Origin: an uncultured Flavonifractor sp.
GTDB lineage: Bacteria; Bacillota; Clostridia; Oscillospirales; Oscillospiraceae
Direction: 5' to 3'
NCBI GenBank assembly: GCA_947346365.1
Contig: CANAAV010000024.1
Location: 1 to 36,085 of the forward strand
DNA: 36,085 bases
The position numbers and the translations under genes are program-made. Below are positions 25,126 through 34,969 of this stretch, piece after piece (position 1 is the first letter of the stretch; each line of letters opens with the position of its first letter). The notes under the pieces were generated by a model. That model saw only the letters and a program-made list of their open reading frames with translations. It searched no databases and had not been told where the DNA came from.

Positions 25126-25199
25126 TACGGCTGAAGGGATTCGAACCCCCGACCTTTTGGTTCGTAGCCAAACACTCTATCCAGCTGAGCTACAGCCGC
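25123..25199 (-). tRNA. tRNA-Arg (ACG)
   Basis: Reading the minus strand, the acceptor stem GCGGCTG pairs with CAGCCGT (a G-T first pair), followed by discriminator A and encoded CCA (25125-25123). The anticodon stem TTTGG/CCAAA closes loop CTACGAA, giving anticodon ACG, which is read as ICG after deamination (arginine). T arm GGGGGTTCGAATCCC. The 77-base length including CCA is normal. Confidence 0.95.
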
Positions 25200-34778: not shown

Positions 34779-34823
34779 GGGGCAGGAATCAACTCAGCTT
34801 TCTATCTTAAATTTTGCGCAGGA

Positions 34824-34937
34824 AAGGACAGCCCTATCCGTCTGGCTTAAGGCTGTCCTTGCGTATACCTATGTAATTTGCCACTGGGGGAGGTTCGTCC
34901 ACGGGGGATCACCGTCTCCTTACACCATAAATTACAT
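34824..34937 (-). promoter_or_regulatory. Structured leader of the CNNM/CorC gene (candidate riboswitch)
   Basis: On the minus strand a 9-bp closing stem ATGTAATTT (34937-34929) / AAATTACAT (34879-34871) encloses about 50 bases with two similar segments, ATCCCCCGTGG and CTCCCCCAGTGG. A second hairpin AAGGACAGCC/GGCTGTCCTT (34860-34851 with 34833-34824) follows. The first stem begins at the predicted transcription start. No known riboswitch class was recognised. Confidence 0.45.
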
Positions 34938-34940
34938 CGT

Positions 34941-34969
34941 AGTATAACACAGCGCGCAGGCAATTGCAA
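34941..34969 (-). promoter_or_regulatory. Promoter of the CNNM/CorC leader
   Basis: On the minus strand, TTGCAA (34969-34964), 17 bases, TATACT (34946-34941). It sits directly behind the metA stop codon (34974), so the CNNM gene has its own promoter. Confidence 0.55.

Follow-up and report, generated by a model that had tools for sequence, protein, structure and literature searches.

A candidate Mg2+-sensing leader peptide upstream of a CNNM-type exporter gene in an uncultured Flavonifractor and its relatives

Results and discussion

The leader that precedes a CNNM-type metal transporter gene in a 36,085-nucleotide stretch of DNA of an uncultured Flavonifractor sp. (the whole stretch analysed, hereafter the window) is, in the reading towards which we lean slightly, a peptide attenuator in which the ribosome would act as the sensor of Mg2+ ahead of an exporter gene. 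It contains a putative upstream open reading frame (uORF) with conservation of the coding type and an acidic and proline-containing N-terminus that recurs in relatives, overlaps a covarying hairpin, and is linked to CNNM genes. Since the conserved bases belong to a ribosome-binding site, to codons 1-5 and to the hairpin, they point to a translated leader peptide with its N-terminus, and not to a ligand pocket in the RNA, as the sensor.

Genomic context, promoter and ribosome-binding sites

The leader lies on the minus strand between metA (35888-34974) and the CNNM gene (34778-33519). The latter, downstream of the leader, encodes a CNNM/CorB-type protein that scores above the Pfam cut-offs for the CNNM, CBS (as a pair) and CorC_HlyC domains and whose nearest solved structure is 7m1t (E = 1.2e-51). 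Its activity would probably be Mg2+ export, by analogy with CorB homologues and with Staphylococcus aureus MpfA, a CNNM relative which, in the accessible part of the source, is taken to drive Mg2+ export either directly or as a regulator (PMC6711546). The same genome carries a second CNNM-domain gene (L190; G000 contig 10, 71897-72487, minus strand), located within a 952-codon open frame; in a quick scan, the sequence ahead of the matched part gave no acidic leader ORF. The upstream gene metA, of the HTS family and outside the leader, exceeds the NCBIfam cut-off for MetA_acetyl, with a score of 480.2 against 460.5 for the homoserine O-acetyltransferase model, and fails the O-succinyltransferase equivalog (449.5 against 495).

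A preliminary description of this DNA had recognized a regulatory-looking cis leader before a CNNM/CorC-type metal transporter, and our analysis bears this out, together with the proposed promoter TTGCAA-17-TATACT (34969-34941, minus strand), to which a TG before the -10 element can be added. A promoter scan found this single promoter, compared with a mean of 0.5 in shuffled sequences, and many relatives have similar ones as judged by eye.

Upstream of both the uORF and the CNNM ORF stand bulged sequences that are complementary to the 16S rRNA tail over an unusual length, the complement of this tail being AGAAAGGAGGTGATCC. The CNNM start had been described as having no clear ribosome site; its upstream sequence GAAAGCTGAGTTGATTCC (34785-34802, minus strand) reads as a bulged, extended Shine-Dalgarno, and similar forms stand before orthologues as judged by eye. 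The corresponding element of the uORF, AAGGAGACGGTGATCC (34906-34921, minus strand), is a conserved block in the alignment of 32 leaders presented below and has a predicted duplex energy of -17.7 kcal/mol with the 16S tail. Extended, bulged forms of the types AAAGGAG..GGTGA.CC and GAAAG.AGAGTTGAT..CC occur at these two sites of the window and at the relatives' loci. Such an element would fit efficient initiation at a GTG codon; extended Shine-Dalgarno pairing has been demonstrated in S. aureus, according to the accessible part of the report (PMC13009471).

The uORF and its overlapping hairpin

The putative leader ORF, absent from the preliminary description, encodes MDEPPPVANYIGIRKDSLKPDG* in 22 codons from a GTG start to a TAG stop (34902-34834, minus strand: GTG GAC GAA CCT CCC CCA GTG GCA AAT TAC ATA GGT ATA CGC AAG GAC AGC CTT AAG CCA GAC GGA TAG). 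Two segments of the leader that had seemed related to each other turn out to be parts of this ORF and its ribosome site, ATCCCCCGTGG being the end of the extended Shine-Dalgarno plus the GTG start codon and CTCCCCCAGTGG the Pro codons plus the Val codon. Only two residues of the N-terminal motif are acidic; Pro-Pro-Pro makes up the remainder and could stall ribosomes rather than destabilise them. The final codons of the ORF constitute the 5' arm and loop of a hairpin (34860-34824), the TAG stop (34836-34834) opens its 3' arm, and the hairpin begins 43-44 nt past the first nucleotide of the ORF. We searched 436,085 bases of this genome on both strands (a 400-kb sample plus the window) for similar elements, requiring an ORF length of 9-60 codons, Asp or Glu as residue 2, three or more D/E/P among residues 2-8, a Shine-Dalgarno of -10 kcal/mol or lower and an overlapping hairpin. 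Of the eight matches obtained, seven lay within long ORFs and the sole free one was this leader. A mobile repeat was considered and rejected, as a search of the genome for further copies gave the leader itself as the single full match, beside seven short matches at chance level.

The hairpin, with arms AAGGACAGCCTT and AGGGCTGTCCTT, lies 45 bases before the CNNM start (34778), as previously described, and folds much better than expected by chance (z = -4.29, with none of 200 shuffles as good). In the 32 aligned leaders, 92.2% of the cells are paired, 15 cells are changed on both sides, and none of 500 shuffles scored as high; in 17 distant leaders, picked for an alignable hairpin, 92.5% of the cells are paired and changes on both sides affect seven of the 11 pairs. 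It thus has the G+C-rich stem, kept by compensating changes, of an intrinsic terminator. Its U-tract in the window (34825-34821, minus strand) is UUU followed by CC, which is weak for such a terminator, and a simple terminator scan does not call it. Among the 32 leaders of this class, that column starts a run of four U in 21, of three U in seven and no U in four; a T5-6 run directly 3' of the stem is present in most of the 17 distant leaders. The CNNM ribosome site starts ~22 nt past the hairpin in the window, with no sequestration visible by eye. A pairing between the 3' arm and the CNNM start region (GGACAG) was dropped, as by eye it is not kept in relatives.

The other structural elements that had been proposed fared less well. 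The 9-bp complementary pair ATGTAATTT (34937-34929) and AAATTACAT (34879-34871) does exist in the sequence and is not kept in relatives, where 35.0% of its cells are paired, against a shuffled mean of 35.3% (32 sequences). Taken in its full length, the leader folds at chance level (z = -1.26, with 19 of 200 shuffles as good).

Conservation of the leader in close and distant relatives

Searches for the CNNM gene gave a match in 32 of 60 relatives, 115 matches at E <= 1e-60 in the order (197 genomes) and eight at E <= 1e-95 in the phylum (299 genomes). The close set, namely the best 80 of 584 related loci, contains 79 loci with at least 200 nt of upstream sequence, 31 of which have an upstream ORF starting with MDEPP, MDQPP, MDRPP or MEEPP (regular-expression search); a 32nd match, in L085, was spurious, and in the other 48 neither this search nor the later rescan found a credible leader. 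Aligning these 31 leaders with that of the window revealed three conserved blocks: the extended Shine-Dalgarno, ORF codons 1-5 and the hairpin. Within the ORF, no variation is seen at positions 2-3 of the start codon or at the first two positions of codons 2, 4 and 5; the Pro codons vary in their last base, whereas that of the Asp codon is almost constant. The RNAalifold consensus of the aligned leaders comprises the downstream hairpin, two G-C pairs and nothing else.

More distant loci have upstream ORFs of different sequence and the same character, such as MDSDSSDDYDN, MDGDDYH, MDTDGGDNPG, MDADSCADPDN, MDSDDGDYPAN, MDSGSSDDDY, MDSDSDDGN, MDSDDPAE, MDGDSCDPDAN, MDIPPL and MDEPPLP; before less similar CNNM homologues we found MDGSDSNAADR, MDNDDGNKSS and MDADAKPRS. 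We rescanned 220 CNNM loci (including the window, the duplicate pairs L040/L120, L041/L010 and L051/L121, and two loci with less than 200 nt upstream) over as much as 700 nt of upstream sequence, requiring an ORF length of 9-60 codons, a ribosome site of -8 or lower, an acidic residue 2 or 3, at least two D/E/P in residues 2-8, and a hairpin of -14 kcal/mol or lower, with the stop at most 12 nt before the hairpin. This layout was found in 73 of these loci and was missing from the other 147. Setting aside six as spurious or doubtful (L075, L079, L105, L222, L140 and L144) leaves 67, three duplicate pairs included, which span ten families of the order (f1, f3, f7, f10, f13, f15, f16, f17, f18 and f20). 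No passing hairpin was found for seven of the earlier picks (L022, L150, L153, L158, L167, L184 and L185).

Another leader set started from the 60 that passed the composition criterion described below; after removal of three judged spurious (L102, L117 and L118) and addition of 14 by eye it has 71 members, 68 of them distinct. The by-eye picks MDSVPRRR/MDSIPRR in L133, L138 and L140 proved wrong; for L133 and L138 the rescan indicated MEDSGTRSCGRYTRIR and MEDSGNRLCDRNTYRVA further upstream. These two loci have a leader with an MEDSG N-terminus and a hairpin of the GGCATAACC...GGCTATGCC type unusually far upstream, at about -360 to -250 of CNNM. In another CNNM subfamily (L217, L225 and L228), an upstream ORF starting MDPLPRS... 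has a strong Shine-Dalgarno and no strong hairpin, and in two of the three it is overlapped by an out-of-frame ORF. We also considered whether the leader is common to other genes and rejected this, since searches with two narrow patterns matched CNNM leaders only: a Shine-Dalgarno plus MD[EQ]PP-like pattern occurred in two of 60 genomes, both times at CNNM, and a strict class-B hairpin pattern in three of 197 genomes, always at known CNNM leaders.

Statistical support for the peptide

The composition criterion is passed by 60 of 162 CNNM regions and by 13 of 206 control regions. In a peptide-blind test, we took only the ORF with the strongest ribosome site from each distinct upstream region (159 CNNM and 206 control, the controls being other genes from the same loci). 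Asp occupied residue 2 in 46 of 57 CNNM ORFs against three of 29 controls at a Shine-Dalgarno of -12 or lower, and in 54 of 79 against six of 80 at -10 or lower, both counts being uncorrected for relatedness. This strongest uORF had an overlapping hairpin in 62 of 105 CNNM regions and 25 of 116 controls, and both the hairpin and Asp2 in 56 of 105 and three of 116, respectively. The Fisher P-values (2e-10 and 2e-16) ignore relatedness, and the counts are far from independent because nine changes of leader state suffice on a tree of 132 CNNM proteins. Hairpins accompany 60 leaders and are missing from six, compared with 32 and 61 among the remaining loci, an association that is partly circular because the leader set was found using the hairpin.

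The N-terminus shows evolution of the coding type: among 44 nearest-neighbour pairs, codons 2-8 have a pN/pS of 0.31, with changes distributed 35:32:72 over the three codon positions, and constraint on the remaining codons is weak (pN/pS 0.63), the rows compared including three wrong picks (L133, L138 and L140) and some doubtful ones (L185, L158 and L144). The +1 frame is likewise open for at least 11 codons in 49 of 68 leaders, so that mere openness of the frame is little informative.

An acidic start of the exporter itself

In many orthologues without a leader, the CNNM ORF starts with MDPDS or MELDSAS, and at the upstream ends of tandem CNNM homologues (L202, L203, L205, L206, L207 and L211) it begins with MDSDGW, MDSDSW, MDGDSW, MDGSSW, MDDGPI or MDPAGS. 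These acidic starts look as if a putative ribosome-destabilising code sat in the exporter. With script-chosen starts, at least two Asp/Glu were found in CNNM residues 2-6 in four of the 70 leader-bearing loci and 51 of the 140 leaderless ones (17 of 173 for other genes), and in the close set in none of 29 and 25 of 48, respectively. On the tree, the exchange between leader and acidic N-terminus comprises six independent well-supported pairs, for which the sign test is non-significant (median p 0.5), and we keep the mutual replacement of the two as a lead only.

Proposed mechanism

In intrinsic ribosome destabilisation (IRD), acidic residues, or mixtures of these with Pro, can cause the translating ribosome to come apart when they occur near the beginning of the nascent peptide. 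The founding papers on IRD are said to be those of Chadani (2017 and 2021). As far as the accessible text of the sources goes, IRD is triggered by N-terminal D/E residues and suppressed by high Mg2+ (PMC9718836), the control of mgtA by MgtL rests on an EPDP motif (PMC11282234), destabilisation on MgtQ needs Asp2 and Glu5 (PMC8092293), CorC itself holds an IRD sequence (PMC12421838), and the corL leader of corA is a related case (PMC11552253). The features of such systems that can be read from sequence, a putative short ORF that has a ribosome site and lies ahead of a gene for a Mg2+ transporter, and acidic and/or proline residues early after Met, are found here. We infer that the uORF is translated, that ribosomes drop off it in a Mg2+-dependent manner and that the output is termination of transcription. 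Transcription would begin just past the promoter, and a ribosome would bind the extended Shine-Dalgarno and start the uORF at GTG (34902), whose codons 2-6, for Asp-Glu-Pro-Pro-Pro, would specify an intrinsically ribosome-destabilising N-terminus. At low cytoplasmic Mg2+ the ribosome may drop off at these codons, with its footprint still upstream of the hairpin, and the free hairpin would form and stop transcription of the exporter gene. When Mg2+ is plentiful, the uORF would be completed across the 5' arm, ending in the 3' arm, the hairpin would be melted, and RNA polymerase would continue so that the exporter is made. As the uORF crosses the hairpin, which would be left free by ribosomes that drop off or pause within codons 3-8, the exporter is predicted to be OFF when Mg2+ is low and ON when it is high. 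The model thereby predicts the sign that an exporter needs.

Alternative explanations

A different fate of the ribosome at the same codons would give the same anatomy: the Asp/Pro N-terminus might stall it, as poly-proline does in an EF-P- or ABC-F-dependent manner, and the hairpin would then form in response to translation fitness or the state of EF-P, not to Mg2+ as such. Proline indeed occupies residues 4 and 5 in all 38 leaders of the window's class, and residue 6 in 22 of them. We nevertheless consider this rather unlikely, as drop-off fits the class-B leaders better: among 30 picks, some of them doubtful and three wrong, residue 2 is acidic in 28 and residue 4 in 15, against Pro in none and six, respectively. 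There is a similarly minor chance that the peptide, through IRD or as a plain uORF, acts on translation or mRNA stability and not on transcription termination, the hairpin serving as an RNase barrier or a ribosome roadblock. The UUU tract of the window, uncalled as a terminator, would agree with this, and the T5-6 runs of most of the 17 distant leaders, together with the apparently free CNNM ribosome site, speak against it.

The ion riboswitch that had been suggested for this leader is, in our estimation, very improbable. Its appeal came from the position in the leader of an ion transporter gene and from the 9-bp stem seen in a single sequence. The stem that would close the aptamer shows neither conservation nor covariation, the consensus fold amounts essentially to the hairpin alone instead of a conserved multi-helix domain, and conservation tracks codons. 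The leader had been said to match none of several known riboswitch consensus sequences, and a scan with Rfam 15 agrees: at the gathering cut-off the matches in the window were three tRNA genes (1-73, 121-191 and 25126-25199) and none on the leader, where relaxing the threshold to E <= 10 gave one sub-threshold ATPC match, on the other strand. Classical attenuation in response to Asp or Pro starvation, to which we give scarcely more credence, would account for Asp- and Pro-rich leader peptides that overlap terminator-like hairpins. However, CNNM is not an amino-acid gene, and the leaders switch freely among Asp, Glu, Pro, Ser and Gly and show no run of one and the same regulatory codon. In classical attenuators the regulatory codons stand just before the hairpin, whereas the conserved position here is N-terminal.

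Comparison with known Mg2+-responsive leaders

The closest likeness to the drop-off attenuator proposed here is MgtL of mgtA in E. coli and Salmonella, which, in the accessible text, shares a short uORF before a Mg2+ transporter gene, an acidic/proline N-terminus after Met (EPDP) and, as we propose for the leader of the window, ribosome drop-off at low Mg2+ with transcription attenuation as the output. The likeness considered here is one of layout and composition. MgtL controls an importer, its drop-off turns the gene ON, and Rho is implicated in Salmonella; here the gene is of the CNNM exporter type, the uORF crosses a covarying hairpin, and drop-off should turn the gene OFF. Completed leader translation represses the transporter in systems of the MgtL type, and the anatomy of our leader predicts the opposite sign. 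MgtQ, a uORF in the mgtC-mgtB intergenic region of Salmonella, has eight codons and requires Asp2 and Glu5 for destabilisation, but, according to the same partial sources, acts on translation of an importer via alternative stem-loops. The proposals for CorC (YbeX) and YoaL-mgpA in Enterobacteria share the sign, since a CorC-domain IRD protein is expected when Mg2+ is high (PMC12421838, accessible part); there, the IRD is part of the ORF of CorC, and YoaL overlaps the region upstream of mgpA, whereas the IRD-like sequence described here would occupy a leader ORF of its own that runs over a hairpin, in anaerobes of the Oscillospiraceae type. The M-box (ykoK) riboswitch (RF00380) is likewise a Mg2+-responsive leader RNA of Mg2+ transporter genes, but works through an aptamer, not through translation; none was found in the window or in its genome (85.8% complete), and it is present in four of 40 relatives.

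We file the leader with the IRD leader peptides, with which it would share the principle of the sensor and from which it differs in gene type, sign of the wiring, hairpin crossing and bacterial branch. Among the papers listed from the open-access literature, judged by titles and the beginnings of abstracts and with subscription papers and bioRxiv mostly outside its scope, none dealt with a leader peptide of a CNNM gene or with an IRD leader outside enterobacteria, and the accessible parts of PMC12992588, PMC13009471 and PMC11550727 do not mention a CNNM leader. In the partial texts covered, natural IRD regulators are few (MgtL, MgtQ, possibly CorL, and the CorC and YoaL proposals), all from enterobacteria and acting on importers where tested.

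Implications

Tentatively, and as a possibility to which we do not yet commit ourselves, these leaders may form an extensive and apparently undescribed class in which, throughout one order, the ribosome senses Mg2+ to control its export. A ribosome-fragility code (MDEPPP, MDSDSSDD, MDGDD, MDSDDGD and others) would sit either in a leader ORF that crosses a terminator or at the start of the exporter protein, the code of the leader being MgtL-like with opposite sign and with only composition and layout persisting between families. If this is true, recurrent reverse-wired leaders ahead of exporter genes in gut anaerobes would point to ribosome stability as a general gauge of Mg2+, would offer dozens of natural variants for defining the N-terminal sequences that cause drop-off, and could account for the control of exporters where a genome lacks an M-box.
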